The translations under genes and the position numbers were made by a program. Below are positions 5,263-40,160 of a stretch of 64,000 bases of DNA, piece by piece; the first letter of the stretch is position 1, and every line of letters starts with the position of its first letter. Location of the stretch: the NCBI GenBank assembly GCA_947646735.1, contig CANTFK010000943.1, positions 124,001 to 188,000 of the forward strand. The letters are read 5' to 3'. The stretch comes from Peronospora farinosa. Lineage: Eukaryota; Oomycota; Peronosporomycetes; Peronosporales; Peronosporaceae. Under the pieces are notes generated by a model. It worked only from the letters and a program-made list of their open reading frames with translations. It was not told the origin of the DNA and searched no databases.

Positions 5263-5334
5263 CCATCCTTCGTTTTAGAACGATTTTTACATCTGTAAAA
5301 CATCGCCTAGGAGACAGAGAGACTTGCGAGCCGT

Positions 5335-5365: not shown

Positions 5366-5367
5366 TC

Positions 5368-5807: not shown

Positions 5808-6149
5808 GTGAATACGAAAGATCGTCTGGGGTATGACCGTCTGAAGACCCGTTTGGACATACATGAGCGACTGGTGATGAGAGACCCGCGTCAAGCGCGG
5901 AGTCTTCCTCGATCGCCGAGTCCTCTATCGCCTCGTTCGTACACGGGGAGCCTCTCGGCTTCCTCGTCGCCGGATCGGCCGCGACGCTCGACTCACAGTC
6001 GAAGTCACCATCGGTCTCGTTAGACCGATGTGGATATGTGATCTCTTCTGGATCCACATATTGTTGCAGAAGACCCACGTAAAATACGGGTTGCGTCTTC
6101 ATGCTGTGTGGTGGAGTGGGTACTCAAAACTGTATGATGAGACCCCAAA
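5808..6149. pseudogene. D1 remnant: antisense-ORF end and pol GPY/F-to-linker region (duplicated copy)
   Basis: Same as 19214-19555. On the + strand it continues the coiled coil and the Ser/Arg/Pro-rich tail of the antisense ORF. On the - strand it reads as pol with the FYVG and YVDPEEITYPHRSNE segments. It ends at GACCCCAAA, where a D element is inserted. Confidence 0.75.
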
Positions 6150-6750
6150 TGTAGACAGGCACTTCTACGAAGTTGCCTCGTGCTACCAGCACACACCTTA
6201 TGCACAAGCGAGGAAGCGGTTAGACCGTCTTACCTTCGCGTGCGAGGGTGGTTAGGAGGTTGGGCGACTGCTTAAGCAGTCGTACCACCAGTTGCCTTTC
6301 GCTTAAGCGAGAGTGCAACGAACTTCTAAGACAAGAAGACACCGACGTCACGTAGAAGCTTTTCGGCTTCTCGTGCGTGGTGCTTTTGATTTAGCAAATT
6401 CAAGACCTCATTGTATTTAATAGATTTTAACTAAATATAAATCCAACTACTGATTGGTTAATATGTAATGATGGGTGCCATCTCTATAGATGCGCATCCC
6501 AACGGGCGAGCTTAAATATAATTAAGCTCGCTCAATGACGTAACTGACTGACGTCATTTGATGACGCCTAGTCCCAGCTGGGCGTCATCCCCATCAATGT
6601 GAATACACCTAGTGTATATCACATACGCAAGGGTGTGACACATGGTGTGTCTCACCCGAGCGACAGGTCTTAAGTACTTACGTACCTTTTTAGACCTGCC
6701 CGCTAAGTATCGCATACTTAACGGGTACGTGTAACGTTGAGCCCGTTACA
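6150..6750 (-). repeat. D2 3' LTR
   Basis: About 601 bp, TGTAGACAGG to GCCCGTTACA on the + strand. Near-identical to 19556-20157. It contains a TGACGTCA palindrome and several short hairpins. Confidence 0.9.
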
Positions 6751-6794
6751 CCATCCCCCCTTTTAAAACGATTTTTACATCTTGTAAAACATCG
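6751..6794 (-). other. D2 polypurine tract and adjacent palindrome
   Basis: Read on the - strand, AAAAGGGGGGATGG abuts the 3' LTR: the plus-strand primer site of the element. Directly upstream lies an imperfect palindrome (6769-6794) with arms CGATTTTTACA and TGTAAAACATCG, one bulged base and a 3-nt loop. Confidence 0.8.
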
Positions 6795-6823
6795 CCTAGG
6801 AGACAGAGAGACTTGCGAGCCGT

Positions 6824-6854
6824 TATAAACGCGCCGCTTTAGTCTACTCAATTC
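6824..6854 (+). promoter_or_regulatory. Putative promoter of the D2 antisense ORF
   Basis: TATAAA at 6824-6829 and an Inr-like TCAATTC at 6848-6854, with the Inr adenine about 26 nt from the TATA, just before the ATG at 6857. The arrangement is unchanged in D1, D3 and D4. Inference only. Confidence 0.45.
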
Positions 6855-6856
6855 TC

Positions 6857-8263
6857 ATGCCACCGAAACGTGGTAAGGCTGATGGGTCGCCTGCAAAGGC
6901 GCCCATGCAGTCCAACACTAAGCGCACGCGCCGCGATTATTCGCAGCCGTCGCAAAGTGCTTCAGGCACTGAGGCGAATCTTCCATCTCACTATAATGTG
7001 GATGAAGATCCATCTCTCATTGTAGATTACAATGAGAGCACTCCATTGCCATCACCCCAACGTGGAGATGAGCAAAGCGCATTGTTGGGACATATGTCCC
7101 CATCCTTTGAGGCACCCGTCCTTGAGGAAGCTTCTATGCTTCCTGCAAGCGAAGGTAAAGCCTCGTCGCCTGCGACTACGAGCGCAGCGACTAAGACTGA
7201 GCACGCTACTTCGAAAGGAGTATTTGCGACTCAGTCAGATGTGACTCCTCAAGCTGATGTCTTGACAATCCATAATGGAGAGTCAGACTCAGGTGAGTGT
7301 GAGCTCAAAGCTCCACCAAGTACACCTTCGGCCTCACTAGCCCTCCGTCGCGAGGGCGGCTACGTGAGTGGTGGCTTGCCACCAATGCCACCTCCATCTG
7401 AGTGGATGAACTCGGATGGGTCTAGCGCAGCGCTTTTTCAGCGTGCAACTATAGACGCTCATAAATTTTATAGCGTCTTTCCCTTGTGGAAAAAGCAGGG
7501 CAAAGCACTTGGTCGTGCTTTCCCAATTCCAGTCGTGCTGCGTTCTAACGAAACAGCCGACGAATATGAAGCTGAACTTCGGCGCCGTGTAACGTTGCAG
7601 GAAGATGCAACGAAACAACGGTCGCAGCGAATCAGCTTCGCCATGAAGCGTGCGCATGAAATCTTTGGTGGTAAGCGACCCCCAATAAATTCTCGCCACG
7701 CTTCTTCTGCTAGTCCATCCGAACCTAGCAGAAAGACGACAGCTGGTGCTGCTTCACATAAGCAGCTACCAGCCCAGGCACGTCGACGCACAAAGCGTCC
7801 ACAGACTCCCACGAGTAAAAGCTCGTTGGGTAACCCTTCCACTGGACAAGGATTTGGAGCTCTCCCTTCACAAACCGGTGGTCCAACAGCCTTCCAACAA
7901 GGAAGCGCGTATTCCCTTCCGTGTCCACCAACACAGGTGGCGCCCGATAGGAGCGGCGATTACGCCCACCTACTCGCGGCTGCTTACCCTGCTGCTGTTC
8001 AGTCGCAGGCTGAGCCCGCTGCGCTGAAGAGGCAGGTGACAGATCTCGAGAGTCAAGTCTCGCGACTGACTGTGGATCTGCGCGATGTGAGGACGAGGGA
8101 CCGTCAGGGGTATGACCGCCTGAAGACCCGTTTGGACATCTTAGAGCGACTGGTGATGAGAGACCCGCGTCAAGCGCGGAGTCTTCCTCGATCGCCGAGT
8201 CCTCTATCGCCTCGTTCGTACACGGGGAGCCTCTCGGCTTCCTCATCGCCGGATCGGCCGTGA
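6857..8263 (+). CDS. Family-D antisense ORF (468 aa), intact, unknown function
   Basis: Encoded on the strand opposite gag-pol, starting about 100 bp inside the 3' LTR. Residues 22-27 form a basic patch (KRTRRD). 36-180 are Ser/Pro-rich and acidic. 186-272 form a probable folded core (ALFQRATIDAHKFYSVF ... EAELRRRVTLQED). 308-314 are basic (ARRRTKR in this copy). 386-434 form a coiled coil (LESQVSRLTVDLRDVRTRD). The tail is Ser/Arg/Pro-rich. No known domain recognised. Residues from about 290 overlap, on the other strand, the pol GPY/F-linker-chromodomain frame (7725-8459). It ends at a TGA (8261-8263), where D4 reads through for 13 more residues. Confidence 0.75.
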   Translation: MPPKRGKADGSPAKAPMQSNTKRTRRDYSQPSQSASGTEANLPSHYNVDEDPSLIVDYNESTPLPSPQRGDEQSALLGHMSPSFEAPVLEEASMLPASEGKASSPATTSAATKTEHATSKGVFATQSDVTPQADVLTIHNGESDSGECELKAPPSTPSASLALRREGGYVSGGLPPMPPPSEWMNSDGSSAALFQRATIDAHKFYSVFPLWKKQGKALGRAFPIPVVLRSNETADEYEAELRRRVTLQEDATKQRSQRISFAMKRAHEIFGGKRPPINSRHASSASPSEPSRKTTAGAASHKQLPAQARRRTKRPQTPTSKSSLGNPSTGQGFGALPSQTGGPTAFQQGSAYSLPCPPTQVAPDRSGDYAHLLAAAYPAAVQSQAEPAALKRQVTDLESQVSRLTVDLRDVRTRDRQGYDRLKTRLDILERLVMRDPRQARSLPRSPSPLSPRSYTGSLSASSSPDRP

Positions 8264-8459
8264 CGCTCGACTCACAGTCGAAGTCACCATCGGTCTCGTT
8301 AGACCGATGCGGATATGTGATCTCTTCTGGATCAACATATCGCTTCAGACGACCCACGTAAAATACGGGGTGCGTCTTCATATACGGTGGGAGAGTGAGC
8401 CTATAATTTAGGTCTCCAACTCCTTCAACCACTGTAAAGGGCCCAATGAATCGGGGCAA
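7725..8459 (-). CDS. D2 Pol C-terminus: GPY/F module, linker and chromodomain
   Basis: Open frame starting at MPRFIGPFTVVEGVGD (the integrase GPY/F module; this Met is simply the first after a frame break). PVFYVGRLKRYVDPEE follows, then a Ser/Pro/Gln-rich linker and a C-terminal chromodomain with LVGRLLDHRF, ILVQWKGYPTSFYSWE and a helix ending AAYVKQHQ. Chromodomains of Gypsy integrases direct insertion to particular chromatin. The whole linker and chromodomain are antisense to the + strand ORF 6857-8263. Confidence 0.8.
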   Translation of the reverse strand: MPRFIGPFTVVEGVGDLNYRLTLPPYMKTHPVFYVGRLKRYVDPEEITYPHRSNETDGDFDCESSVTADPAMRKPRGSPCTNEAIEDSAIEEDSALDAGLSSPVALRCPNGSSGGHTPDGPSSSHRADPQSVARLDSRDLSPASSAQRAQPATEQQQGKQPRVGGRNRRSYRAPPVLVDTEGNTRFLVGRLLDHRFVKGELQILVQWKGYPTSFYSWESVDALCVDVPGLVAAYVKQHQLSSFC

Positions 8460-8718
8460 TAGCTTAGTAGTACCACCAGGTAGTACAGAGATTGCATGTT
8501 TAGGTAGGGTAGCAGTACTTTATAGCACTTTGTTCCCCACACTAAAGTGTTCATTGTTTTTGCGACCATGCTGGTCTGCAGATTGTTTTTGCTTGTCCTG
8601 TGCGCTTGCCATCGCGTCACGTACTTTACGTGTGATGGCTAATCGCTCATCCACAAAGCGCTGAGCTTCGCTCACGCTTTTAGCATCCAGCTCGCCGATG
8701 ACGCCTCCAAGAGGTCGT

Positions 8719-9502
8719 TCATGGGTCGACGCTGTTCGACAACACTATAGTGTCATCATCAAGGAGCACTGGCATTTCTTGCCGTGCTTCCTTTGTGACA
8801 CCTATAGGTGTCGTGACCACTGCTAAATTAGCAGTGTCACTAGGGCAACCTTGGCCCTCTTTGGCATTCGCACCGAGCGAAGTGAGGGGCCCTCCCCCAC
8901 TAAGACTCGGGCTGCGTACAAACGAGACTGGCATTCGAGGATGACGCAGTCCGTTAATGTAAAACGGTGTTTCACCCGTACTGGCGTGAACACTATTATC
9001 AATAGCGAACTCCACGAATGGAAATTGCTTGCTCCATTCTTTAGGAGTCGCTACTGTACGCAACACATCCGCCACGACTCGATTGGCTCGTTCTGTTTGG
9101 CCATCAGTCTGGGGATGATCAGCTATTGGCATGTGGAGCTTGCTACCCAGCAGCTCAAACACATGTCGCCAAAAACCCGACGTAAAACGCGGATCCCTGT
9201 CCGATACTATGGACTCGGGCATCCCGTGTAGTCGATACACGTGATCCATAAACAAGAGGGCAGCCTCTTTTCCTGAGATCTTGGTGCTACATGGTGCCAA
9301 ATGCACCATCTTGCTCAGTCTGTCTACAAAGACGACGAGCCCCGTCCTGCCTTTATGGTCAGGCGGTAAGCCAAACATGAAGTCCAAACTGACCGACTTC
9401 CAACATTCAGTTGGAATCGGCAGTGGCTTCAGTGGCGCACTCTAGAAGGTGCAGGCTTTATGCGCTGACACTCTTCGCAAGAGCGAATATAATTGGCCAC
9501 TT
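8719..9502 (-). pseudogene. D2 integrase (zinc-finger end and catalytic core), frameshifted
   Basis: The frame 9387-8719 contains LDFMFGLP, VSDRDPRFTSGFWRHVF and QTDGQTERANR, the three acidic positions of the DDE integrase core. Near 9448 D2 lacks one G present in D3 and D4 (CACTCTAG versus CACTGCTAG), which cuts off the N-terminal CEECQR zinc-binding end still readable in those copies. Confidence 0.8.
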
Positions 9503-9665
9503 ACCGATATAGGTGGGGCCACCAAAATTCCTTTGACACTCGTAAGAATGTCTTTTCACGGCCCAGATGCCCACTAGATGGCGCATCATGGCACTCGTGA
9601 AGTATCATCAGCTTGAGATCTGTGTCATGAGGGACATAGATTCTCAAGGGATCACAGGGTGACAG

Positions 9666-10234
9666 TTAATGCCATAACACGCCATCACTGTAACTAAAGC
9701 GATTTAGTTTCGCTTTGAGGTGCGACGGAAGGGTAACCTTTCGTGCACCAAAATGATCCAACAGCAGGCGACAATGTTCGTCCTGACTGTAACACTCCTT
9801 GATATGGGAGGCCATTGAGCTCGTCACATGGTAGGCCTTCATGGCTGCCAATGTTGACGACTCAACTTGTGCTTTCGCACGAGACACACTATCCTGGCGT
9901 CTTGCCTCGAAGTCTGGTCTGCGCGATAACGCGTCATCCAAGACATTAGACTTACCCGGCTTATATTCAACTTTGAAATTAATTCAGATAAGAATGGTAG
10001 CCATCTCGCCATTCTCGGCCAGAGGTGCGGTGAGTTTATAGCGGTCCGCAGTGATGCGTGATCCGTATAAACCACAAAAGTTTCGGTGCCCAAGAGGTGC
10101 ACCCGAAACTTCACAAGGGCATACTTAATTGAAAGTAGCTCCTTGTCATGCACAGGGTAGTTCAGCTCGGCAGCTTTCAAAAGCCGAGTCTGATAAGAAA
10201 TGACACGGTCAACGCCGTTGTCATCCTTCTGCAT
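9666..10234 (-). pseudogene. D2 RNase H domain, frameshifted
   Basis: Reads SYQTRLLKAAELNYPVHDKELL, YTDHASLRTAINSPHL and later NVLDDALSRRPDFE in two overlapping frames. A 1-nt loss near 9980 (AATTAATTCAG versus AATTAAATTCAG in D3) splits the ORF. Zinc-domain lead-in sequence follows to 9666. Confidence 0.75.
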
Positions 10235-11254
10235 GAGCGCGCTGCCGTTTGCAAAATTGCTTGCATCGCAGACGACTAAAGGGCTTATCCGCGTCTGGCA
10301 ATGCCAAGACCGGTGCCTCTACAAGAGATTGCTTCACTGAAGTGAATGCATCTTCTTGTTCCTTTGACCAAGTCCATTCTGTATCCTTTTTCAAAAGAGA
10401 AGACAATGGCTTAGTCTGCTCCGCATAATTCTTGCTGTACTTATGCAAGTAATTAGCGAGCCCAAGGAATTGGCGCAGATCCCAAACGTGCCGTGGGACT
10501 GGCCATTCCTTTACAGCCTTTACCTTTTTTAGGTCTGCTCGTACACATGTGTACCTACGACGCAGCCCAGTACAGGTATCTCGGGGACCCCTATTACGCA
10601 CTTTTGCAAGTTCACGTATAATTGGGCGTCACCCAGTGTCTGCAACACAGCGTCTAAATGACGCTTGTGCGACTCTATCGCGCTCAGACCGTCCTCCGCC
10701 TTACTATGCAAGAATACATCGTCAAAGTAATGGGGCGCGTAAGCACGGTGCTGACGCATCACGTGAGCCACCACTCGGTTGAATGTTGCCGGAGCATTTT
10801 TCAACCCTTGTGGCATCACAAGCCACTCCCACAGCATACCGCTTGGGGTGCTTACTGCCGTTTTGTCTACATCGGTATCTCTCATGAGAACCTAATAGTA
10901 GTAGCCATCCTTCAGATCCAACGCGGAAAAGATAGTTGACTTTCCCATGGAATTCAACAAAACATCTTTCCGCGGGATCGGCGTTTGAGCCGGTATGGTG
11001 GCCGTGTTCAGCTTATTATAAGCATGAACCACGCGCCATCCACCCGTGGCTTTACGCACACAGAAGGTCGGGCTGCGGTGAGGCGACTTGCTCTCACGTA
11101 CATGTCCCGCCTTGGCTCGCTTGTCGAAGAACTCATCGATGTAATCGACTTGTTCCTTCGGCAACGGCCATTGCCTGGTCACACAATACTTGGTGCCAGG
11201 CTCCAGGTCAATCTCGTGCCTGATGCCCCTATCGGCTGGTAGGCGGTTCGGCAC
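10221..11254 (-). pseudogene. D2 reverse transcriptase
   Basis: Reads GIRHEIDLEPGTKYCVTRQWPLP, FCVRKATGGWRVVHAYNKLN, LWEWLVMPQGLKNAPATFNR, the active-site box YFDDVFLHS, and RQFLGLANYLHKYS. It is broken by an in-frame stop after GYYY (shared with D3 only), a frameshift after VLGCVVGT and another at FSRLRCKQF. The last two are also in D3 and D4. Confidence 0.8.
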
Positions 11255-12028
11255 TTATGCTGGAAACACGTCACGGTGTTTCCACAGAACATCATAGAAT
11301 GGGCTGTCCTTCAAGGCATCTCAGCCTTGAGCAGCGAGCCTTGTCTTCTTGTCGGTCTCCAAGACACTCTCGTCCATTGTGGATAACGAGCAACAGTCCA
11401 CCACGTTATCTTCTGGAACCGGTGCGACTATCTCGTGGATCTTTCCTTCCTTCAGCTCGGACAGGAACAGATCCCACGTCATCTACGAGAGATTGACTAT
11501 CTCCTCGGCAGATGCCAAGACAAGTAGGAGCACCTAAGCTGAGGAAGCCTCCGGCATTTTGTCTTCGACGGCCTCGAACAACTCGTTCGTAGGTCCGTCC
11601 TCTTGGACCGAGACTGATCCTAGGGTCACTCATTTCGACGTGCCCTTGATCGTCTTAATACGCCTGGTGCTCGTTCTTCGAGTCACCACGACCTTTGACC
11701 TGGAAGAAGGTGTCGTTGCTATCTCAGCTAACGCACTCCTTCAAACCGCACCAGGCTCTTGGCTCTGTGCCAGTTCTTGTGGCGCTTGACTTCCTGTCAG
11801 CCCACCATCAACTACCACAGGCTCTCGGCTCTGTGCAGGACTATTGGACGCATGACTACCTGCCATCGTACCATTCACTACACCAGTCTTTTCAACCTGG
11901 GTAGGAATATGTGTCACCTGGCTTTCCGCCAGAGCACTTCCAACTACACCACTCCTTTAGAGCTAGGTAATTCCTGGTGCCGATTGACATACCGTCATCA
12001 CACTCTCGACTGTGTTGGACACGGCATC
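11255..12028 (-). pseudogene. D2 protease-RT linker remnant
   Basis: One frame can be followed (REPVVVDGG, EDGPTNELFEAVED) but it is interrupted by several stops at the same places as in D3 and D4. The end at 12028 falls at GGCATC, just inside the protease C-terminus, and is the right edge of the duplicated block. Confidence 0.65.
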
Positions 12029-12239
12029 GGTCCAACAACCTTTCAACAAAGAAGCGTGTGTTCCCACCGCATCCACCAACACAGGTGGCGCCCGATAGAA
12101 GCAGCGATTACGCCCAACTATTTGCGGCTGCCTATCCTGTTGTTGTTCAGTCACAGGAGGATATCGCTGCGCTGAGAAAAGAGGTGGCGGATCTATCTAG
12201 TCAAGTCTCGCGACTGACTTCGGATCTACGCGCTGTAAA
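12029..12239 (+). pseudogene. D1 antisense ORF, middle fragment
   Basis: Matches the D antisense ORF from the GGPTAFQQGS region to the coiled coil (VADLSSQVSRLTSDLRAV), with more divergence than D2 versus D3, as expected for the older D1. It ends at the F insertion site, GTAAA, and resumes at 19214. Confidence 0.75.
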
Positions 12240-16898: not shown

Positions 16899-18035
16899 AG
16901 GTGATAAACAAGGATCGAGTGCAGCTCACGGTATTTTGAACGCCAATGTAGTAACCCGATCTAAGGCGAAAATTGCTGCTTTGACGCCACGAGACGTGGC
17001 GTCATCATTAGCTCGATGGACTGCGCAGACATTGATTGACCCGCCTTCGGGTTACGTTCTCCTACTGCCAACTACGCGCCGAATGAGTTGGCGCGACCAA
17101 TTGATGACATGGATGTGTCAAAGTTTATACATAACGTCAAGCAATCACCCGGTATGTACACGACGTGCTACAGTCTGCGGTAGACCAGCAGAAATAGAAT
17201 GCTGACAAACATATAAGAAAAGAACACGAGCAAGTTTGAGTAAGATGATCGTGTATTATTGTCTACAGAGGGTCTAAGGGATTCAGCAGTTACTAACATA
17301 GGCGCGAGTAAACTCGCGCCACGCTTCATCATTTTATCAAAGGTTCTAAGGCAATCGGCGACGCTTATACACTCGATGTTCCCTCATCATTGCGACTCCA
17401 CCCGACTTTCTATGTCGGGCGGCTTAGGAATATCGTCCGGCTATGCTTCACGGCTTCGCTCCGATGTCGGCTCCAAGGGTCCGTAAGTCGATCGGCCTTC
17501 CCGTCGTGATCGACGCGCCGATGACATGGGGCGTGCCTTCGATTCCGTCTGAACCTGACCAAGCACCTGGCGTTCCAGAAACCTCAAGTGTTCTACCAGC
17601 TCACGGCTCGACTGCCGGTTCTCACTCACAGTCTCTCCGCCTGGGCAGCACGCTCACTAGCAGCCTCAGCCTCCAGCTGAGCATCGGCAGCCTTGCTTAC
17701 GGCCTGATCAACATCGTCCTGGGCAACCAGGACGCCAGCAGTACCATCGCGAGGGCCCTCCTCCGCTTGTTAATGCGGAGGGACAGGTGCGCTGGATTGT
17801 AGACCGCGTTGTGGGTCACGAAGACCCTCCAAAACCTGTACTGCAGTCGATTCATGAGAAGCGCGCGGTTCCATCCGCGCGCAGGTACCGAGTACGTTGG
17901 CTTGGATTCCCCCCCAGCAGGATACATGGAAACCACGCTCCTTATTCCTTCGTGACGTTCCAGATGTGGTTCAGTCGTATGAAGCCTCGAAGTCAGGCTA
18001 TTACAATTCGGGCGCGCACGCGAACGCTCTCGTGA
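16899..18035 (+). pseudogene. F Pol C-terminus with GPY/F module, linker and chromodomain
   Basis: Decayed sequence to 17258, then NIGASKLAPRFI and LHPTFYVGRL (GPY/F region, about 17295-17420), a linker, then MRWIVDRVVGHEDPP and RRYRVRWLGFPP, a chromodomain with several lesions. The linker is antisense to the coiled coil of the F antisense ORF. Confidence 0.7.
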
Positions 18036-18792
18036 CAAACGAAAAAGGCAAGGAGATCCAACGAGAACGATGAAGCGAAAGAGAACGATGCCGTGAACGA
18101 AAACGTCATGGTAAATACATATCATCACGATTGCGAGGCGAGAATCGCGCAACAGGACGGGCAGGTGAACGTGTCGCTGCCCTGCGCTGATTAAATCGAG
18201 GAGATTGACTCCGCTGTCGCGAGTGGTGCTGCCAGCGAGGCGCACCACGAATAACTGCGCTTCTCTGTTCGCTCAGACTTCGCTCATACTTTGCAATCCA
18301 ACTTCGTTCGCGTTCGCTGAGTGGACACTCAGCGATGTGTCGTCGCCATTCGTCATGAGTTGGGCGTGGAGTCGAGTCACAAGACTGGCATCCTTCATTG
18401 ACATGAACGCAGCAGAGGCGGTCCTCATTCCAAGCATTCTCACACACTCTTTGGCGTAGCGCGCCGATGGAGTGATCGGTGCGAAGCTCCTCTCGATTAG
18501 CGAGCCATAGTCGGAAGCTGCTACCATCCTCTAGCATCCTATTCCTACGTTGAAAGAAGGCACACCAAGAGCGATGCAGGACCTCGTACCCGATTCCATT
18601 AAGGCCCTTCCTGCGCAGTTTTTTAAATCGCCAGAGGTAGTCCCGCACCATGTCCAGTGAGGCCGGAGCGTGAGCTCCGGACAAGTCATACAATGGCCAA
18701 GGTATGAGTTGTTGCGCCATGATGCTGGTTGTTGCACTCCCGCTAACGGTGCTTGGGAGTGCTGCTGGATTGGGTGTTGGGTCTCCAGACAT
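17441..18792 (-). pseudogene. F antisense ORF, unknown function
   Basis: Read opposite to F pol from an ATG at 18792. A 228-residue open piece (to 18106) contains HRSWCAF, SSFRLWLANREE, RLCCVHVNEGCQSC and SWIAKYERSLSE. About half of a 68-residue stretch is identical by eye to the antisense ORF of C (54425-55693). Further on, in broken frames, a coiled coil (AVSKAADAQLEAEAAS, ELVEHLRFLERQVLG) runs to about 17441. His, Cys and Trp spacing hints at metal binding, which is inference. No domain recognised. Confidence 0.65.
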
Positions 18793-18830
18793 TGCTTGTT
18801 CGTTTGTGAGCGATGGGGTTTCGACAGTTG

Positions 18831-18871
18831 AGCACTCACGGTTAATGAGTGCTGTCTTGAGAAGAGGGTAA
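18831..18871 (+). other. F pre-LTR palindrome and polypurine tract
   Basis: AGCACTCA and TGAGTGCT form a perfect 8-bp stem with a 7-nt loop (18831-18853), directly followed by the purine tract GAAGAGGGTAAAG (18859-18871) and the 3' LTR. Confidence 0.7.
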
Positions 18872-19213
18872 AGTAATGGGTTACATTACACACATAGTTA
18901 ACATATATAAACAATTACATATGTAGGCAGGTGCTGGGCCCGAATAGCGAGCACAGCGTGGCAATTTATTATTGTTTTATTATTGGGGCCTAAAGTCACA
19001 ATATAGACCAATGATAAATCAACCTGAAATTGTGTGGTTCCCGAAAGGCGGGAACACTGTCGTATTTATTACGACTAAAATCTTCGTAATTAGTACGAAT
19101 TAAAACAAAAATAAAAATCAGAGTAAACTTTACTTAATACCTAATACTTGGGCTTGAGAGTCTTCCTCAAGCGCACGTGTGAGCTAGTGACGGTACGTTC
19201 TAGCCCCGTTACA
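18872..19213 (+). repeat. F 3' LTR
   Basis: Begins AGTAATGGG (the expected TG is changed) and ends GCCCCGTTACA. Aligns with 12240-12580 along its length with modest divergence. Confidence 0.85.
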
Positions 19214-19555
19214 GTGAATACGAAAGATCGTCTGGGGTATGACCGTCTGAAGACCCGTTTGGACATACATGAGCGACTGGTGATGAGAGACCCGCGTCAA
19301 GCGCGGAGTCTTCCTCGATCGCCGAGTCCTCTATCGCCTCGTTCGTACACGGGGAGCCTCTCGGCTTCCTCGTCGCCGGATCGGCCGCGACGCTCGACTC
19401 ACAGTCGAAGTCACCATCGGTCTCGTTAGACCGATGTGGATATGTGATCTCTTCTGGATCCACATATTGTTGCAGAAGACCCACGTAAAATACGGGTTGC
19501 GTCTTCATGCTGTGTGGTGGAGTGGGTACTCAAAACTGTATGATGAGACCCCAAA
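19214..19555. pseudogene. D1 remnant: end of antisense ORF and pol GPY/F region
   Basis: Continues D1 after the F insertion. On the + strand: coiled coil (YDRLKTRLDIHERLVMRD) and Ser/Pro tail. On the - strand: pol FYVGLLQQYVDPEE. Ends CCAAA, where D3 is inserted; the rest of D1 is not found. Confidence 0.75.
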
Positions 19556-20157
19556 TGTAGACAGGCACTTCTACGAAGTTGCCTCGTGCTACCAGCACAC
19601 ACCTTATGCACAAGCGAGGAAGCGGTTAGACCGTCTTACCTTCGCGTGCGAGGGTGGTTAGGAGGTTGGGCGACTGCTTAAACAGTCGTACCACCAGTTG
19701 CCTTTCGCTTAAGCGAGAGTGCAACGAACTTCTAAGACAAGAAGACACCGACGTCACGTAGAAGCTTTTCGGCTTCTCGTGCGTGGTGCTTTTGATTTAG
19801 CAAATTCAAGACCTCATTTGTATTTAATAGATTTTAACTAAATATAAATCCAACTACTGATTGGTTAATATGTAATGATGGGTGCCATCTCTATAGATGC
19901 GCATCCCAACGGGCGAGCTTAAATATATTTAAGCTCGCTCAATGACGTAACTGACTGACGTCATTTGATGACGCCTAGTCCCAGCTGGGCGTCATCCCCA
20001 TCAATGTGAATACACCTAGTGTATATCACATACGCAAGGGTGTGACACATGGTGTGTCTCACCCGAGCGACAGGTCTTAAGTACTTACGTACCTTTTTAG
20101 ACCTGCCCGCTAAGTATCGCATACTTAACGGGTACGTGTAACGTTGAGCCCGTTACA
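19556..20157 (-). repeat. D3 3' LTR
   Basis: About 602 bp, TGTAGACAGG to GCCCGTTACA. It contains TGACGTCA at 19956-19963, a CRE/ATF-type palindrome that could act in the promoter (inference). Confidence 0.9.
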
Positions 20158-20230
20158 CCATCCCCCCTTTTAAAACGATTTTTACATCTTGTAAAACATC
20201 GCCTAGGAGACAGAGAGACTTGCGAGCCGT

Positions 20231-20261
20231 TATAAACGCGCCGCTTTAGTCTACTCAATTC
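20231..20261 (+). promoter_or_regulatory. Putative promoter of the D3 antisense ORF
   Basis: TATAAA 20231-20236 and Inr-like TCAATTC 20255-20261, three bases before the ATG at 20264. Confidence 0.45.
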
Positions 20262-20263
20262 TC

Positions 20264-21670
20264 ATGCCACCGAAACGTGGTAAGGCTGATGGGTCGCCTG
20301 CAAAGGCGCCCATGCAGTCCAACACTAAGCGCACGCGCCGCGATTATTCGCAGCCGTCGCAAAGTGCTTCAGGCACTGAGGCGAATCTTCCATCTCACTA
20401 TAATGTGGATGAAGATCCATCTCTCATTGTAGATTACAATGAGAGCACGCCATTGCCATCACCCCAACGTGGAGATGAGCAAAGCGCATTGTTGGGACAT
20501 ATGTCCCCATCCTTTGAGGCACCCGTCCTTGAGGAAGCTTCTATGCTTCCTGCAAGCGAAGGTAAAGCCTCGTCGCCTGCGCCTACGAGCGCAGCGACTA
20601 AGACTGAGCACGCTACTTCGAAAGGAGTATTTGCGACTCAGTCAGATGTGACTCCTCAAGCTGATGTCTTGACAATCCATAATGGAGAGTCAGACTCAGG
20701 TGAGTGTGAGCTCAAAGCTCCACCAAGTACACCTTCGGCCTCACTAGCCCTCCGTCGCGAGGGCGGCTACGTGAGTGGTGGCTTGCCACCAATGCCACCT
20801 CCATCTGAGTGGATGAACTCGGATGGGTCTAGCGCAGCGCTTTTTCAGCGTGCAACTATAGACGCTCATAAATTTTATAGCGTCTTTCCCTTGTGGAAAA
20901 AGCAGGGCAAAGCACTTGGTCGTGCTTTCCCAATTCCAGTCGTGCTGCGTTCTAACGAAACAGCCGACGAATATGAAGCTGAACTTCGGCGCCGTGTAAC
21001 GTTGCAGGAAGATGCAACGAAACAACGGTCGCAGCGAATCAGCTTCGCCATGAAGCGTGCGCATGAAATCTTTGGTGGTAAGCGACCCCCAATAAATTCT
21101 CGCCACGCTTCTTCTGCTAGTCCATCCGAACCTAGCAGAAAGACGACAGCTGGTGCTGCTTCACATAAGCAGCTACCAGCCCAGGCACGTCGACGCGCAA
21201 AGCGTCCACAGACTCCCACGAGTAAAAGCTCGTTGGGTAACCCTTCCACTGGACAAGGATTTGGAGCTCTCCCTTCACAAACCGGTGGTCCAACAGCCTT
21301 CCAACAAGGAAGCGCGTATTCCCTTCCGTGTCCACCAACACAGGTGGCGCCCGATAGGAGCGGCGATTACGCCCACCTACTCGCGGCTGCTTACCCTGCT
21401 GCTGTTCAGTCGCAGGCTGAGCCCGCTGCGCTGAAGAGGCAGGTGACAGATCTCGAGAGTCAAGTCTCGCGACTGACTGTGGATCTGCGCGATGTGAGGA
21501 CGAGGGACCGTCAGGGGTATGACCGCCTGAAGACCCGTTTGGACATCTTAGAGCGACTGGTGATGAGAGACCCGCGTCAAGCGCGGAGTCTTCCTCGATC
21601 GCCGAGTCCTCTATCGCCTCGTTCGTACACGGGGAGCCTCTCGGCTTCCTCATCGCCGGATCGGCCGTGA
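20264..21670 (+). CDS. Family-D antisense ORF (468 aa), intact, unknown function
   Basis: Same architecture as the D2 copy: basic patch at 22-27, acidic Ser/Pro stretch, core 186-272, basic 308-314 (ARRRAKR), coiled coil 386-434, Ser/Arg/Pro tail. It differs from D2 at only a few residues (for example Pro for Thr in SSPAPTS). The ORF is uninterrupted although the sense pol in the same element carries many stops. A nuclear or nucleic-acid-linked role would fit the basic patches, but this is a guess. Confidence 0.75.
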   Translation: MPPKRGKADGSPAKAPMQSNTKRTRRDYSQPSQSASGTEANLPSHYNVDEDPSLIVDYNESTPLPSPQRGDEQSALLGHMSPSFEAPVLEEASMLPASEGKASSPAPTSAATKTEHATSKGVFATQSDVTPQADVLTIHNGESDSGECELKAPPSTPSASLALRREGGYVSGGLPPMPPPSEWMNSDGSSAALFQRATIDAHKFYSVFPLWKKQGKALGRAFPIPVVLRSNETADEYEAELRRRVTLQEDATKQRSQRISFAMKRAHEIFGGKRPPINSRHASSASPSEPSRKTTAGAASHKQLPAQARRRAKRPQTPTSKSSLGNPSTGQGFGALPSQTGGPTAFQQGSAYSLPCPPTQVAPDRSGDYAHLLAAAYPAAVQSQAEPAALKRQVTDLESQVSRLTVDLRDVRTRDRQGYDRLKTRLDILERLVMRDPRQARSLPRSPSPLSPRSYTGSLSASSSPDRP

Positions 21671-21866
21671 CGCTCGACTCACAGTCGACGTCACCATCGG
21701 TCTCGTTAGACCGATGCGGATATGTGATCTCTTCTGGATCAACATACCGTTTCAGACGACCCACGTAAAATACGGGGTGCGTCTTCATATACGGTGGGAG
21801 AGTGAGCCTATAATTTAGGTCTCCAACTCCTTCAACCACTGTAAAGGGCCCAATGAATCGGGGCAA
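21132..21866 (-). CDS. D3 Pol C-terminus: GPY/F module, linker, chromodomain
   Basis: As 7725-8459: PRFIGPFTVVEGVGD, FYVGRLKRYVDPEE, low-complexity linker, chromodomain with LVQWKGYPTSFYSWE. Fully open. The chromodomain and linker lie antisense to 20264-21670, with first codon positions of the two frames facing each other. Confidence 0.8.
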   Translation of the reverse strand: MPRFIGPFTVVEGVGDLNYRLTLPPYMKTHPVFYVGRLKRYVDPEEITYPHRSNETDGDVDCESSVTADPAMRKPRGSPCTNEAIEDSAIEEDSALDAGLSSPVALRCPNGSSGGHTPDGPSSSHRADPQSVARLDSRDLSPASSAQRAQPATEQQQGKQPRVGGRNRRSYRAPPVLVDTEGNTRFLVGRLLDHRFVKGELQILVQWKGYPTSFYSWESVDALRVDVPGLVAAYVKQHQLSSFC

Positions 21867-22125
21867 TAGCTTAGTAGTACCACCAGGTAGTACAGAGATT
21901 GCATGTTTAGGTAGGGTAGCAGTACTTTATAGCACTTTGTTCCCCACACTAAAGTGTTCATTGTTTTTGCGACCATGCTGGTCTGCAGATTGTTTTTGCT
22001 TGTCCTGTGCGCTTGCCATCGCGTCACGTACTTTACGTGTGATGGCTAATCGCTCATCCACAAAGCGCTGAGCTTCGCTCACGCTTTTAGCATCCAGCTC
22101 GCCGATGACGCCTCCAAGAGGTCGT

Positions 22126-22908
22126 TCATGGGTCGACGCTGTTCGACAACACTATAGTGTCATCATCAAGGAGCACTGGCATTTCTTGCCGTGCTTCCTT
22201 TGTGACACCTATAGGTGTCGTGACCACTGCTAAATTAGCAGTGTCACTAGGGCAACCTTGGCCCTCTTTGGCATTCGCACCGAGCGAAGTGAGGGGCCCT
22301 CCCCCACTAAGACTCGGGCTGCGTACAAACGAGACTGGCATTCGAGGATGACGCAGTCCGTTAATGTAAAACGGTGTTTCACCCGTACTGGCGTGAACAC
22401 TATTATCAATAGCGAACTCCACGAATGGAAATTGCTTGCTCCATTCTTTAGGAGTCGCTACTGTACGCAACACATCCGCCACGACTCGATTGGCCCGTTC
22501 TGTTTGGCCATCAGTCTGGGGATGATCAGCTATTGGCATGTGGAGCTTGCTACCCAGCAGCTCAAACACATGTCGCCAAAAACCCGACGTAAAACGCGGA
22601 TCCCTGTCCGATACTATGGACTCGGGCATCCCGTGTAGTCGATACACGTGATCCATAAACAAGAGGGCAGCCTCTTTTCCTGAGATCTTGGTGCTACATG
22701 GTGCCAAATGCACCATCTTGCTCAGTCTGTCTACAAAGACGACGAGCCCCGTCCTGCCTTTATGGTCAGGCGGTAAGCCAAACATGAAGTCCAAACTGAC
22801 CGACTTCCAACATTCAGTTGGAATCGGCAGTGGCTTCAGTGGCGCACTGCTAGAAGGTGCAGGCTTTATGCGCTGACACTCTTCGCAAGAGCGAATATAA
22901 TTGGCCAC
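22126..22908 (-). CDS. D3 integrase core
   Basis: A 260-residue open frame: zinc-finger end IRSCEECQRIKP, SLDFMFGLPPD (first Asp), SDRDPRFTSGFW (second Asp) and QTDGQTERANR (Glu). A TAA just upstream, in the YR*VANYIRS region, cuts it from the HHCC domain and is present in D2 and D4 too. Integrase would join element DNA to the chromosome. Confidence 0.82.
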   Translation of the reverse strand: MANYIRSCEECQRIKPAPSSSAPLKPLPIPTECWKSVSLDFMFGLPPDHKGRTGLVVFVDRLSKMVHLAPCSTKISGKEAALLFMDHVYRLHGMPESIVSDRDPRFTSGFWRHVFELLGSKLHMPIADHPQTDGQTERANRVVADVLRTVATPKEWSKQFPFVEFAIDNSVHASTGETPFYINGLRHPRMPVSFVRSPSLSGGGPLTSLGANAKEGQGCPSDTANLAVVTTPIGVTKEARQEMPVLLDDDTIVLSNSVDP

Positions 22909-23073
22909 TTACCGATATAGGTGGGGCCACCAAAATTCCTTTGACACTCGTAAGAATGTCTTTTCACGGCCCAGATGCCCACTAGATGGCGCATCATGGC
23001 ACTCGTGAAGTATCATCAGCTTGAGATCTGTGTCATGAGGGACATAGATTCTCAAGGGATCACAGGGTGACAG

Positions 23074-23643
23074 TTAATGCCATAACACGCCATCACTGTA
23101 ACTAAAGCGATTTAGTTTCGCTTTGAGGTGCGACGGAAGGGTAACCTTTCGTGCACCAAAATGATCCAACAGCAGGCGACAATGTTCGTCCTGACTGTAA
23201 CACTCCTTGATATGGGAGGCCATTGAGCTCGTCACATGGTAGGCCTTCATGGCTGCCAATGTTGACGACTCAACTTGTGCTTTCGCACGAGACACACTAT
23301 CCTGGCGTCTTGCCTCGAAGTCTGGTCTGCGCGATAACGCGTCATCCAAGACATTCGACTTACCCGGCTTATATTCAACTTTGAAATTAAATTCAGATAA
23401 GAATGGTAGCCATCTCGCCATTCTCGGCGAGAGGTGCGGTGAGTTTATAGCGGTCCGCAGTGATGCGTGATCCGTATAAACCACAAAAGTTTCGGTGCCC
23501 AAGAGGTGCACCCGAAACTTCACAAGGGCATACTTAATTGAAAGTAGCTCCTTGTCATGCACAGGGTAGTTCAGCTCGGCAGCTTTCAAAAGCCGAGTCT
23601 GATAAGAAATGACACGGTCAACGCCGTTGTCATCCTTCTGCAT
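23074..23643 (-). CDS. D3 RNase H and start of the integrase zinc domain
   Basis: A 189-residue open frame: NYPVHDKELLSIKYALVKFR, YTDHASLRTAINSPHL, VLDDALSRRPDFE, then a spacer to the integrase N-terminus. Open here, broken in D2. Confidence 0.8.
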   Translation of the reverse strand: MQKDDNGVDRVISYQTRLLKAAELNYPVHDKELLSIKYALVKFRVHLLGTETFVVYTDHASLRTAINSPHLSPRMARWLPFLSEFNFKVEYKPGKSNVLDDALSRRPDFEARRQDSVSRAKAQVESSTLAAMKAYHVTSSMASHIKECYSQDEHCRLLLDHFGARKVTLPSHLKAKLNRFSYSDGVLWH

Positions 23644-24663
23644 GAGCGCGCTGCCGTTTGCAAAATTGCTTGCATCGCAGACGACTAAAGGGCTTATCCG
23701 CGTCTGGCAATGCCAAGACCGGTGCCTCTACAAGAGATTGCTTCACTGAAGTGAATGCATCTTCTTGTTCCTTTGACCAAGTCCATTCTGTATCCTTTTT
23801 CAAAAGAGAAGACAATGGCTTAGTCTGCTCCGCATAATTCTTGCTGTACTTATGCAAGTAATTAGCGAGCCCAAGGAATTGGCGCAGATCCCAAACGTGC
23901 CGTGGGACTGGCCATTCCTTTACAGCCTTTACCTTTTTTAGGTCTGCTCGTACACATGTGTACCTACGACGCAGCCCAGTACAGGTATCTCGGGGACCCC
24001 TATTACGCACTTTTGCAAGTTCACGTATAATTGGGCGTCACCCAGTGTCTGCAACACAGCGTCTAAATGACGCTTGTGCGACTCTATCGCGCTCAGACCG
24101 TCCTCCGCCTTACTATGCAAGAATACATCGTCAAAGTAATGGGGCGCGTAAGCACGGTGCTGACGCATCACGTGAGCCACCACTCGGTTGAATGTTGCCG
24201 GAGCATTTTTCAACCCTTGTGGCATCACAAGCCACTCCCACAGCATACCGCTTGGGGTGCTTACTGCCGTTTTGTCTACATCGGTATCTCTCATGAGAAC
24301 CTAATAGTAGTAGCCATCCTTCAGATCCAACGCGGAAAAGATAGTTGACTTTCCCATGGAATTCAACAAAACATCTTTCCGCGGGATCGGCGTTTGAGCC
24401 GGTATGGTGGCCGTGTTCAGCTTATTATAAGCATGAACCACGCGCCATCCACCCGTGGCTTTACGCACACAGAAGGTCGGGCTGCGGTGAGGCGACTTGC
24501 TCTCACGTACATGTCCCGCCTTGGCTCGCTTGTCGAAGAACTCATCGATGTAATCGACTTGTTCCTTCGGCAACGGCCATTGCCTGGTCACACAATACTT
24601 GGTGCCAGGCTCCAGGTCAATCTCGTGCCTGATGCCCCTATCGGCTGGTAGGCGGTTCGGCAC
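23630..24663 (-). pseudogene. D3 reverse transcriptase
   Basis: Same motifs as in D2, including YFDDVF. It carries the D2/D3-specific stop after GYYY and the two frameshifts common to all D copies. Confidence 0.82.
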
Positions 24664-25371
24664 TTATGCTGGAAACACGTCACGGTGTTTCCACAGAACA
24701 TCATAGAATGGGCTGTCCTTCAAGGCATCTCAGCCTTGAGCAGCGAGCCTTGTCTTCTTGTCGGTCTCCAAGACACTCTCGTCCATTGTGGATAACGAGC
24801 AACAGTCCACCACGTTATCTTCTGGAACCGGTGCGACTATCTCGTGGATCTTTCCTTCCTTCAGCTCGGACAGGAACAGATCCCACGTCATCTACGAGAG
24901 ATTGACTATCTCCTCGGCAGATGCCAAGACAAGTAGGAGCACCTAAGCTGAGGAAGCCTCCGGCATTTTGTCTTCGACGGCCTCGAACAACTCGTTCGTA
25001 GGTCCGTCCTCTTGGACCGAGACTGATCCGAGGGTCACTCATTTCGATGTGCCCTTGATCGTCTTAATACGCCTGGTGCTCGTTCTTCGAGTCACCACGA
25101 CCTTTGACCTGGAAGAAGGTGTCGTTGCTATCTCAGCTAACGCACTCCTTCAAACCGCACCAGGCTCTTGGCTCTGCGCCAGTTCTTGTGGCGCTTGACT
25201 TCCTGTCAGCCCACCATCAACTACCACAGGCTCTCGGCTCTGTGCAGGACTATTGGACGCATGACTACCTGTCATCGTACCATTCACTACACCAGTCTTT
25301 TCGACCTGGGTAGGAATATGTGTCACCTGGCTTTCCGCCAGAGCACTTCCAACTACACCACTCCTTTAGAG
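24664..25371 (-). pseudogene. D3 protease-RT linker with shared stops
   Basis: A continuous frame is visible but holds at least six stop codons at the same positions as in D4, plus one private to D2 and D3. Confidence 0.65.
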
Positions 25372-25899
25372 CTAGGTAATTCCTGGTGCCGATTGACATA
25401 CCGTCATCACACTCTCGACTGTGTTGGACACGGCATCAGCCACATAAGCCTCTCGCAAGAGCACATCCTTTCCGGTGTCTTGCGTAGAGCTAGCGACTGT
25501 GCGTGTACGCCATTCTATCCCTAGTTGGTGTTTAGCCAACCAAGGCATGCCTAGGATGAGGTCATACGGACTCTCCATACCTAGCACTGTAAGCTTCTCT
25601 TTACAAGAGAAGTCACTGAAACTGAAGGCGAGTTCAACTTGAACTCCCTCCGATTTAGCGAGCGCGCCGTTCGCTAAACGAACGATCGCCTCTTCTCGCT
25701 TGCCATCCTGGCAAAGCGACTCATAACTCGCTGGTCTCTTTTTCAGAGCCTCGAGTTTCACAAAGTTTTGTGATGCACCCGAATCCACGAGAAGGGTCAT
25801 CACTTGGTCATAGCCTCTTACTCGAGCGCTACAGACCAAAAGGGTTGAGGTCCGACCTTTCGGAACCTCAGGGACTATGCTACCCATTTGTTCGATCAC
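25372..25899 (-). CDS. D3 aspartic protease
   Basis: A 175-residue open frame with the catalytic box LLVDSGASQNFV and the second-half motif DLILGMPWLAKH, as in retropepsin-like Gypsy proteases. It would cut Gag-Pol. Starts shortly after the gag stop. Confidence 0.85.
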   Translation of the reverse strand: MIEQMGSIVPEVPKGRTSTLLVCSARVRGYDQVMTLLVDSGASQNFVKLEALKKRPASYESLCQDGKREEAIVRLANGALAKSEGVQVELAFSFSDFSCKEKLTVLGMESPYDLILGMPWLAKHQLGIEWRTRTVASSTQDTGKDVLLREAYVADAVSNTVESVMTVCQSAPGIT

Positions 25900-27069: not shown

Positions 27070-28215
27070 ATGACAGTAGTCATGCACCAAATCCGTTACC
27101 TTAACTTGGTGCTGAAGATGCGCTAACAGCGTTACGTGACCCTCCTGACGTATCGCCAACGGTGACGGTTACTAACCCACTCGACGAGCAACAACAGCAG
27201 ACCATCGACCAAGAGGAAGGTGCCAAGCGCCGGACAAAAAATATGGCGAGACTTCAGGACCACCGACAGTATAGGTTCAAGCCACCTACGGTGGAAGAAC
27301 GCCTAAGGAAGCATCTGGGCATTCCCTTTCTGGTTGGACCATTGGGCCTGAGGCCATTTCACCCGAGGATGTTGCTACGCAAACGGCCCTTCGACAACGC
27401 TATCTGGAACCTCTCATTATTACGCAAAGCCAATACTTGGCAAGCCTCAACAGGAAAGTGCGCGGTGCGCCAGTCCCTCCCATAAAGGGCGTTCCCATCC
27501 TTCTGTTCGCGGGGGAATTCGAGGAAGAGGAAGACACGGATTTTAGCCGCTGGGCGCATTATGCGCGACGTTTAAGCAGCATGTGAACCCTACGGTCAAG
27601 TGCCGATGTGGCAGATGTTCGTCTCGAACGAAAATGCGTTACAATTACGCTGAACTGAAGGCCCGGGGAAAATTGAAATCCCAACGAACGCATTATTCGT
27701 CTGCTACCCAGCACCCCAATGTTTCGGCTACACCTGTAGCCGCGAGTCCACGACAGGCCAAGGCCGCTAACTCGCCTAACCCCACCACTACAGGTGAGAA
27801 GCGTCATCGCCAACAGGTTGGCCCTGCGCACGACGCTCAAAAACGTCCACTGCGTATGGGCAATCCTGCCGCAGGGGAACCTCGAGCTCCCATGAGTTCC
27901 ACGACTCGGGATATCTCCGCCACTTTACCAGATACTGGTTTTGACCATGGAGGCGACGCTTCTGTAGTAGACGCTCCACATGGAACTGTAGGTTCCCCTG
28001 CGCATCGAGCAAAGGAGGCGGAGGCCGGTGTATCGGCACAAGCTCATGCCGAGCTTGTTCAGGAGGTGCGGTCCTTTCGTGAGGAAAGGCAGACGATGAA
28101 TTCCCGGCTTGCGTCCCTGGAAGAGAGTCGGACCCGTATGCAGGGTCAACTTGACATGTTGGCGCAGATGATTCGTCCCGCAACAATGCCAATGGGCTCG
28201 GCGCGAGCGCCTTAG
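27070..28215 (+). pseudogene. A antisense ORF, unknown function
   Basis: Opposite to A pol. Pieces in three frames: an acidic N-terminal stretch (SEDDSSHAP, EDALTALRDPPDVS), then DEQQQQTIDQEEGAKRR; then SPEDVATQTALRQRYLEP and KGVPILLFAGEFEEEED; then 27583-28215 open, ending in a coiled coil (AELVQEVRSFREERQTMNSR). The layout resembles the D antisense ORF, and the coil again lies antisense to the pol linker. Confidence 0.6.
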
Positions 28216-30946: not shown

Positions 30947-32774
30947 TGTGGTGGAGTGGGATTCGAAAAATTGCTGATGCGACTCCAACTCTCCACTGGC
31001 GCCCGGACGACCGACTAACGGAGGGGGTACCCCGATTCCGTGTGTATAGCCTTCCTCACCTTGTGTACCCGTCGGTAGGGCGGGTTGCTCTCTTCTCGGT
31101 GGACTTGAGTCGATGTTGAACTTGATTGTGTTAGGGATAGGTGGGGGGGCGATCTTGTGGAATTCCTCACACGATCGCGTTGTTCTTGGGGTGCTCTATT
31201 TGAGTCGCCCTGATCTCCCCTTGAGATCGCCTTATCCAATTGGTTGATACTTAATACGCTTACCTTCTGACCACTTGAGCCGTCTCGCGATCTTGTATCT
31301 GGGCTTCCTGGCGGTCATAAAGTGAAGAGATCGACGAGATCGCGGTTTGACGATCCGTAACGGGAGGAAGGATTATCCGGGTAGACGGGAGCAAGATACG
31401 CGATCCGGTAGAAGAATTCATCGGTAGATCGCGCGTGACGAGCACACCAGTTCGGGTGTGGCGATCGTTTTCGGGTGGAGATATGGTCATAAGAGACGAA
31501 GGGACGAGAAGAGTGAACGAGACAGGCCAACACTGTTTGTGGGCTAACGGTGCAGGGGACGATTGTGGCGAATCGAAGGAGTGAATTTGGCAAAGTGTGA
31601 TCGCATATTCCCGGTTAAGTCCGAAATGGCCAATATTGATGAATCGCGATCTCGCAGAAAGGTTTCGAAGTGATGTCAAACGGGATGGAAAACAGTGAAT
31701 GGTGGAGTTCGCAGTTCTATATGGAGTTAACTATGGCCTATAAACTACGCAATTGCGATCTCCGGTATTTTTCGATGGCGATCCGCGTGAACGCGATCGC
31801 GAAGAAGGAGGATTGGTACATCCAAGTATGTGGAAGACAGTCTGGTGTGAATCACGTCGCTATGAAAGACTGGAATGAGGTGGACATGACACGTCATATA
31901 GATGGACCATCTCACATGACCCAAGAAACGGTGAAGAGGACAAGTCGTGATCCGGCGGATCGGTATCCGATACTAATTATTAGTACCGCGATCCGATATT
32001 AATTATTAGTACCGCGATCCGATACTAATTATTTAGTACCGCGATCCGATACTAACCGCGATCCGACACTAAAATGGTATTAGATACAATCGAGGTAGCG
32101 ATCCAGATCGCGGCGATATTGGAGTGGACCACATTACAAGATCTGATTTTTCCGAAAGGGCGATACGTGGCAATAGATCCTGAGCTACAGATAGTCAAGA
32201 TCATAGGTTTTGGTTTTTGATTGGTTAACATTAACAGAGTTCAATTTGCTTTTAAGTACACGTGTCGACTTCTCTTCCGGGCTGGATTCTTTGGCCTCCC
32301 GACGTCTCAAGGAAGTCTACCTACTACGCAAGTCATATCCCTGGATTGTTTGGCCAGGGATTGCAAGAATTCTCAACAAAACAACTCAAGCTGCGATTGG
32401 ACGCAGAGGACTAAGAAGGCCAGATACAAGATCGCGAGACGGCTCAAGTGGTCAGAAGGCAAGCGTATTAAGTATCAACCAATTGGATAAGGCGATCTCA
32501 AGGGAGATCAGGGCGACTCAAATAGAGCACCCCAAGAACAACTGCGATCGTGTGAGGAATTCCACAAGATCGCCCCCCACCTATCCCTAACACAATCAAG
32601 TTCAACATCGACTCAAGTCCACCGAGAAGAGAGCAACCCGCCCTACCGACGGGTACACAAGGTGAGGAAGGCTATACACACGGAATCGGGGTACCCCCTC
32701 CGTTAGTCGGTCGTCCGGGCGCCAGTGGAGAGTTGGAGTCGCATCAGCAATTTTTCGAATCCCACTCCACCACA
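30947..32774. mobile_element. Insert G: 1.83-kb element with about 358-bp inverted ends
   Basis: Starts TGTGGTGGAGTGGG and ends CCCACTCCACCACA. About 358 bp at each end (30947-31304 and 32417-32774) are near-perfect inverted copies. Flanked by GGTT on both sides (30943-30946 and 32775-32778), a 4-bp duplication. The right end resembles the 3' half of the B LTR (ACACGTG, TCTTCCGGGC, CCGACG, ACGGGTACACAAGGTGAG). It is perhaps a solo LTR of a B-related family carrying an inverted copy of its own end, or a non-autonomous foldback element. No convincing ORF. Confidence 0.75.
31964..32072 (+). repeat. 26-bp tandem repeats in insert G
   Basis: Units GATCCGATACTAATTATTAG plus TACCGC start at 31964, 31990 and 32016, with shortened units at 32043 and 32060. 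They lie in the middle of G, in a region rich in GCGATC words. Confidence 0.85.
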
Positions 32775-36047: not shown

Positions 36048-36078
36048 ATCGGCCACCTCATCTATGATGTAGGCCCTG

Positions 36079-40154: not shown

Positions 40155-40160
40155 ACTCGG

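Follow-up and report, generated by a model that had tools for sequence, protein, structure and literature searches.

LTR retrotransposons are known to carry antisense accessory genes, which are poorly understood. In plants, antisense accessory ORFs between pol and the 3′ LTR have been described in maize Grande (GENE23), rice RIRE2 and Retand (TRP28 proteins) (PMC7264820, PMC11963269). For GENE23 of Grande, an own upstream promoter and nuclear localisation have been reported (PMC7264820, PMC11963269). A regulatory role of the plant antisense proteins is itself a proposal (PMC7264820, PMC11963269). Outside plants, Boty (BcGypsy1) of Botrytis cinerea carries the antisense gene brtn (PMC7264820, PMC8365987) and the Steamer-like element MchSLE-1 of Mytilus is an LTR retrotransposon reported to have an antisense mRNA (PMC10974842). 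HBZ of HTLV-1 is a nuclear product of an antisense gene (PMC11963269), and the antisense promoter of HTLV is located in the 3′ LTR (PMC7264820).

The DNA analysed here is a stretch of 64,000 nucleotides from Peronospora farinosa, called the window below. Its first-pass annotation proposed that in four Gypsy families (A, C, D and F) an ORF runs opposite to pol, and noted, correctly, that some Gypsy elements of plants also have antisense ORFs (PMC7264820). As in the plant elements, the conserved antisense ORF occupies the slot between pol and the 3′ LTR. In contrast, the ORF described here overlaps pol, and the main text of neither PMC7264820 nor PMC11963269 uses the word "overlap". Retand belongs to a non-chromovirus lineage, whereas the families studied here possess a chromodomain, and the antisense proteins that we scanned gave no TRP28 match. 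Boty, a Gypsy element of a fungus, likewise possesses an additional antisense ORF; this likeness is one of description, and the accessible text does not state that brtn overlaps pol. MchSLE-1 shares the antisense mRNA but is an animal element. HTLV-1 HBZ is alike in outline (an antisense gene, nuclear) but comes from a different element class, and the likeness is not one of homology. Compared by its description, the oomycete Ty3/Gypsy element Chronos possesses a chromodomain, as here; the terms "antisense", "additional ORF" and "opposite" are absent from the main text of PMC5348765. In the open-access literature, searched by title and start of abstract, an antisense ORF of an oomycete Gypsy element was not found. 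An overlap at the integrase-chromodomain junction with alternating constraint in several oomycete families was likewise not found in the open-access literature searched. The ORF is an antisense accessory ORF of the kind seen in Grande, Retand and Boty, in a new overlapping form: it overlaps pol and is present in hundreds of copies. We consider it probable that four related chromodomain Gypsy families carry an antisense gene for a protein of 427-487 amino acids, which runs from beyond the 3′ end of pol back into pol; that the constrained frame switches inside the overlap; and that the product is a nuclear coiled-coil accessory protein, which would regulate the element from its own predicted promoter.

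The ORF is at the proposed place in all four families. However, only family D is intact in the window; there, stops or frame breaks interrupt the ORFs of A, C and F, although intact copies exist elsewhere in the genome. The features of the window are as follows.

20264 to 21670, + strand: antisense ORF of D copy 2, intact, 468 amino acids, opposite pol
6857 to 8263, + strand: antisense ORF of D copy 1, intact, 468 amino acids, in the same segmental duplication as copy 2
46865 to 48310, + strand: antisense ORF of D copy 3, intact, 481 amino acids
21135 to 21926, - strand: C-terminal open frame of pol in D copy 2, with SH3/GPY-F module, linker and chromodomain (Pfam SH3_Tf2-1, 5e-15; Chromo, 2e-7)
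21135 to 21347, - strand: chromodomain-coding stretch of D copy 2, coordinates transferred from copy L008; pN/pS is lower in pol and the antisense frame is relaxed
21348 to 21670, - strand: pol linker stretch of D copy 2, facing the antisense C-terminal helix; by pN/pS the antisense frame is constrained and pol relaxed
19551 to 20157, - strand: 3′ LTR of D copy 2, which matches the LTR at 53685-54290 at 98.8%
6145 to 6750, - strand: 3′ LTR of D copy 1
46156 to 46759, - strand: 3′ LTR of D copy 3; identity to the 5′ LTR of this copy (53690-54290) is 98.7%
20231 to 20236, + strand: TATAAA, candidate promoter element of D copy 2, 33 nt upstream of the antisense ATG
27070 to 28215, + strand: remnant of the family A antisense ORF, with internal stops; the last 222 codons are open
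54425 to 55693, + strand: remnant of the family C antisense ORF, with internal stops
17700 to 18885, - strand: remnant of the family F antisense ORF in two frames; open pieces 18109-18885 and 17700-18272

The antisense ATG of D copy 2 is 107 nt inward of the 3′ LTR. Pfam matches to the pol pieces of C and D (reverse transcriptase, integrase, GPY/F-type module and chromodomain) give the architecture of a chromodomain Ty3/Gypsy element. An antisense accessory ORF of LTR retrotransposons (aORF-3R) is antisense to gag-pol between pol and the 3′ LTR; this position was observed together with the LTR in D and as an ORF antisense to pol in the other families, and here the ORF also reaches into pol. 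D copies 1 and 2 are alike into their flanks (5639-12028 and 19045-25437, 99.7% identity). Because the flank is shared, these copies arose by a single segmental duplication rather than by independent insertions. The duplicated copies are about 13.4 kb apart, and an older D fragment (4673-6107) adjoins copy 1. Beside the element of copy 1, a diverged fragment of the C-terminal part of the D antisense ORF was found at 12029-12236 (+ strand; 81% DNA identity over 209 nt), which is a sign of an older related element. Within the region of the A element, 30947-31307 and 32415-32774 form a nearly perfect inverted repeat of about 360 nt (98.6%). At the left end of the window (3-1037, + strand), a Copia-type reverse transcriptase was observed (Pfam RVT_2, E 5e-12).

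For a search of the genome (46.85 Mb, 274 contigs), the queries were the antisense protein of D and, for A, C and F, the open pieces. Scored matches, which are the best of larger candidate lists, numbered at least 91 for D, 150 for A, 150 for C and 147 for F. Among the matches listed, the commonest open frame from stop to stop was 500 codons in D, 443 in A, 471 in C and 490 in F, and 35 of the 91 D matches, some of them partial, had no internal stop. Many copies together with conservation across species, as in an aORF-3R, were observed. We then fetched 72 copies that span the region (30 D, 30 A, 6 C and 6 F). The antisense ORF was fully open in 16/30 D, 5/30 A, 6/6 C and 5/6 F copies. Both the antisense ORF and pol were open on the same DNA in 24 of the 72 copies, namely 12/30 D, 4/30 A, 5/6 C and 3/6 F; two of the four A copies (L050 and L051) are possibly duplicates, as their match scores are the same. 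These proportions are biased upward for C and F, because the copies were chosen for long open frames, and for D and A the top-scoring matches were taken, a choice that likewise favours less decayed copies. One reference end per family was used in this count. Therefore, a D copy that ends 13 codons earlier, such as copies 1 and 2 of the window, was scored as not open.

The antisense frame might be open merely because the codons of pol leave room for it, with no protein being made. The first-pass annotation had observed that the first codon position faces the first codon position in A, C and D; the intact copies of these families agree with this, and F does too. When pol was shuffled synonymously, the overlap part remained open in 29 of 5000 shuffles for D and 429 of 5000 for A, and in none of 5000 for C or F. 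The other two registers were open in 13 and 0 (A) and 2 and 0 (D) of 5000 shuffles, and in C and F all three registers gave 0. Thus, the register in common is the one that pol leaves open most readily in A and D, and register agreement says little on ancestry. The permissive register and the open A shuffles are what an open frame without a protein would predict. However, the ORF runs 202-290 codons past pol in D, A and F. In dinucleotide shuffles, this part beyond the overlap was open in 0 of 2000 for D (290 codons), 0 of 2000 for A (286 codons) and 1 of 2000 for F (202 codons), and the shorter part of C (115 codons) was open in 22 of 2000. The ORF is thus open more than chance would give. Homologues in other species, for example in P. 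fragariae, also speak against an empty frame.

Selection was measured as pairwise pN/pS (Nei-Gojobori sites, all pairs, codon bootstrap) in the 30 D, 30 A, 6 C and 6 F copies. Neutral decay after insertion pulls every ratio toward 1. Beyond the overlap, the antisense frame gave 0.47 (0.35-0.63) in D, 0.40 (0.33-0.47) in A and 0.42 (0.22-0.85) in F, and disjoint pairs gave similar values of 0.53, 0.50 and 0.60, respectively. The value for C was 1.6, from 6 copies with 13 summed synonymous differences, too few to be informative. The pol frame beyond the overlap gave 0.46 (D), 0.38 (A), 0.36 (C) and 0.27 (F), so that the antisense values of D, A and F are similar to those of pol. The remaining frames were mostly near 1, save one that shares the third positions of the constrained frame. 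The expected purifying selection outside the overlap was therefore confirmed in D, A and F (0.40-0.47), and for these families the reading in which pol codons simply leave room is refuted there; overall, we regard it as extremely improbable. The antisense ORF is a real gene.

Because the two frames share DNA, we split the overlap at the start of the chromodomain. In the linker, pN/pS of the antisense frame was 0.39 (0.24-0.66) in D, 0.49 (0.31-0.77) in A, 0.32 (0.16-0.68) in C and 0.72 (0.35-1.69) in F, as compared with 1.47, 1.14, 1.23 and 0.88 for pol; the linker result of F (6 copies) was not significant. Opposite the chromodomain, the order was reversed: the antisense frame gave 1.70 (D), 1.31 (A), 0.84 (C) and 1.36 (F), and pol gave 0.52 (0.30-1.06), 0.29 (0.18-0.47), 0.33 (0.10-1.06) and 0.31 (0.00-1.87), an interval that excludes 1 only in A. 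The pol tail past the chromodomain is long only in C and F; there, C gave 0.48 for the antisense frame and 1.16 for pol, and F gave 0.66 and 0.42, respectively. The two frames do not give independent ratios, since antisense position 2 coincides with pol position 3 and vice versa, and constraint in one frame inflates the ratio of the other. The unconstrained frame should therefore rise above 1, which is no sign of positive selection. Permutation of codon columns gave p values of 0.0002 (D), 0.0002 (A), 0.014 (C) and 0.026 (F) for the difference between chromodomain and linker. Circular shifts of the segment border, a harder yet unclean control in that small shifts barely alter the labels, reached the observed difference in 8 of 188 (D), 18 of 136 (A), 8 of 204 (C) and 33 of 177 (F) cases. 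The most variable site class in the linker was antisense position 3, which is pol position 2, in all four families. Constraint thus alternates, with the pol frame constrained in the chromodomain and the antisense frame in the linker; this is clear in D, A and C and weak in F. As expected of an antisense overlapping gene, both frames are open and constrained on the same DNA, with the constraint alternating by segment. The families offer a natural, replicated system for the study of overlapping-gene evolution.

These ratios also bear on the idea that the antisense RNA is what matters and the protein is secondary: the RNA would pair with genomic RNA, feed silencing and limit copy number. Such a role has been proposed for the antisense ORFs of plant elements (PMC7264820), and, from the geometry, transcription antisense to pol would yield an RNA complementary to the genomic one. 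However, pairing would not constrain amino acids, whereas the antisense frame shows a deficit of nonsynonymous changes. We therefore judge a primary role of the RNA to be decidedly unlikely and return to the protein.

Homologues of the antisense proteins were found in Peronospora, Hyaloperonospora and Phytophthora, 104 in total: 14 of D type, 77 of A type and 13 of C/F type (E <= 0.001), with Peronospora destructor and Phytophthora fragariae, rubi, capsici and megakarya among the named sources of the C/F type. Matches in Peronospora effusa reached 90% identity for the D protein and 93% for the A protein, and a P. fragariae homologue was 41% identical over 91% of the C protein. Where a name was shown, it was "unnamed", "hypothetical" or "uncharacterized"; precomputed Pfam entries were absent. 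A class of "uncharacterized" proteins of downy mildews and Phytophthora would thereby be explained as transposon genes. An hmmscan of Pfam (E <= 0.1) with 2 D proteins, A and C fragments, 12 C/F proteins and 17 A proteins did not detect Transposase_28 (PF04195).

Structure models were made from small alignments (A, 1 own sequence and 16 of the 77 homologues; C/F, 4 own sequences and 8 of the 13), with pTM values of 0.34 and 0.25. In the models of both A and C, a folded N-terminal domain is followed by a disordered middle and then by a C-terminal helix (residues 369-414 in A and 359-431 in C). The N-domain comprises residues ~80-248 in A (block pLDDT 57-92, >80 from residue 141) and ~41-190 in C (block pLDDT 53-87). 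In A it falls outside the overlap, as does about half of it in C. A C-terminal coiled coil antisense to the linker, as had been claimed, is consistent with the model helix in A and C, and in D and F it is read from the sequence only. The overlap suggests a low-conflict sharing of DNA, in which the disordered part of each protein lies opposite the ordered part of the other. Foldseek found no known fold at E <= 0.001. Thus, the function rests on analogy.

By analogy with GENE23, TRP28 and HBZ, the antisense protein may regulate the element. HBZ of HTLV-1 has a leucine zipper. The antisense transcript would start between the 3′ LTR and the ATG, where the TATA word lies in D. As a raw count taken without a chance control, a TATA-like word preceded the antisense ATG in 25 of 30 D copies; such words were counted only in D, and A, C and F have no obvious one. 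The C-terminal helix would dimerise the protein, basic and RS-rich stretches may direct it into the nucleus, and there it would tune the transcription or integration of the element. The sequence of the spacer between GPY/F and chromodomain would be set by the antisense coiled coil, and the overlap may persist because pol tolerates any sequence in this spacer. If so, the function of an antisense accessory protein becomes testable in a lineage outside plants.

Alternatively, the product might be a structural protein, such as a second Gag-like protein or a packaging factor, which assembles through the coiled coil and whose site of action is the particle, not the nucleus. The predicted arrangement of folded N-domain, basic and RS-rich disordered middle and coiled coil would also fit an RNA-binding particle protein, and the C/F proteins possess a conserved Cys/His cluster. 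However, no Pfam Gag match was found among the antisense proteins scanned, and a separate Gag ORF (Retrotrans_gag, likely of family C) is present at 60170-61291. Moreover, the antisense coding means that the protein cannot be translated from genomic RNA. A structural role is therefore unlikely in our view, and a nuclear regulator is the reading that we prefer.

Place, register and architecture are the same in the antisense genes of A, C, D and F, as had been described. The further suggestion of one ancestral antisense gene fared less evenly. In profile comparison, the A and D proteins are related (95.7%, E 8.8e-9); the core alone gave 85% (E 6e-6), and controls (reversed and 8 permuted) gave at most 0.5%. 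The C and F proteins align directly over the N-terminal domain. In contrast, comparison of C/F with A/D profiles gave no signal, and the coiled-coil parts alone, in every pairing, gave at best 7.1% as against 16% for the reversed control of that pairing. A tree of the integrase C-terminal part of pol grouped A and D (97/95), left C and F unresolved beside them and set a distant family apart (100/100). Among the reverse-transcriptase pieces of A, C, D and F, those of C and F were the most similar. Because the pairs of antisense proteins match the relations of pol, the antisense gene and pol appear to descend together. Relationship within each pair thus stands and descent of both pairs from one gene does not follow, the shared register being weak evidence. 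A single ancestral gene that diverged past recognition in all families, including a distant family without overlap, would account for the like slot, orientation and domain order of A/D and C/F and for the agreement of pol tree and antisense protein on A and D. However, no profile signal was detected among A/D, C/F and the distant family, and we consider a single ancestor rather doubtful.

The age of the overlap was addressed with 21 of the 104 homologues. We asked whether any synonymous coding would allow 22 residues from the beginning of the chromodomain to be encoded, in the same register, by the opposite strand. In 21 of 21 homologues, including proteins of P. fragariae, P. rubi and P. capsici, the peak (84-120) exceeded both the second-best offset and the best of 12 local shuffles (<=82), in a test that is not fully independent, since the homologues resemble the query proteins. 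The hidden chromodomain motif indicates that the genes of the homologues very likely lie opposite pol too. Thus, other Peronosporaceae possess homologues of the antisense protein, with a chromodomain motif decodable on the other strand.

The distant chromodomain Gypsy family is present in the window at 36073-42956 (+ strand), and three copies (L077-L079) have pol open frames of 1840, 1904 and 1396 codons. Two of the three (L077 and L078) possess a long antisense ORF downstream of pol, which makes no contact with pol. A genome search with one of these ORFs gave 116 matches with open frames of up to 973 codons, and no relation to the other antisense proteins was detectable. Because the distant family has an antisense ORF in the same slot, such a gene is not confined to the overlapping families. 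Counted between equivalent landmarks, the linker is 46 residues long in the distant family, as compared with 96-156 residues in A, C, D and F. Across the five families seen, a long linker goes with the overlap. As to the order of events, we tentatively suggest, at somewhat less than an even chance, that the pol linker is the reverse reading of the antisense coiled coil: an antisense regulatory gene would have grown into pol and stretched it, the two proteins would since have interleaved their ordered and disordered modules, and the arrangement would have been kept since the ancestor of Phytophthora and Peronospora.

In the third copy of the distant family (L079), there is no long downstream antisense ORF, and an antisense frame of 219 codons (346-1003, - strand) runs across the chromodomain end. 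In the window, positions 43730-44800 (- strand) are open over a 36-nt tandem repeat.
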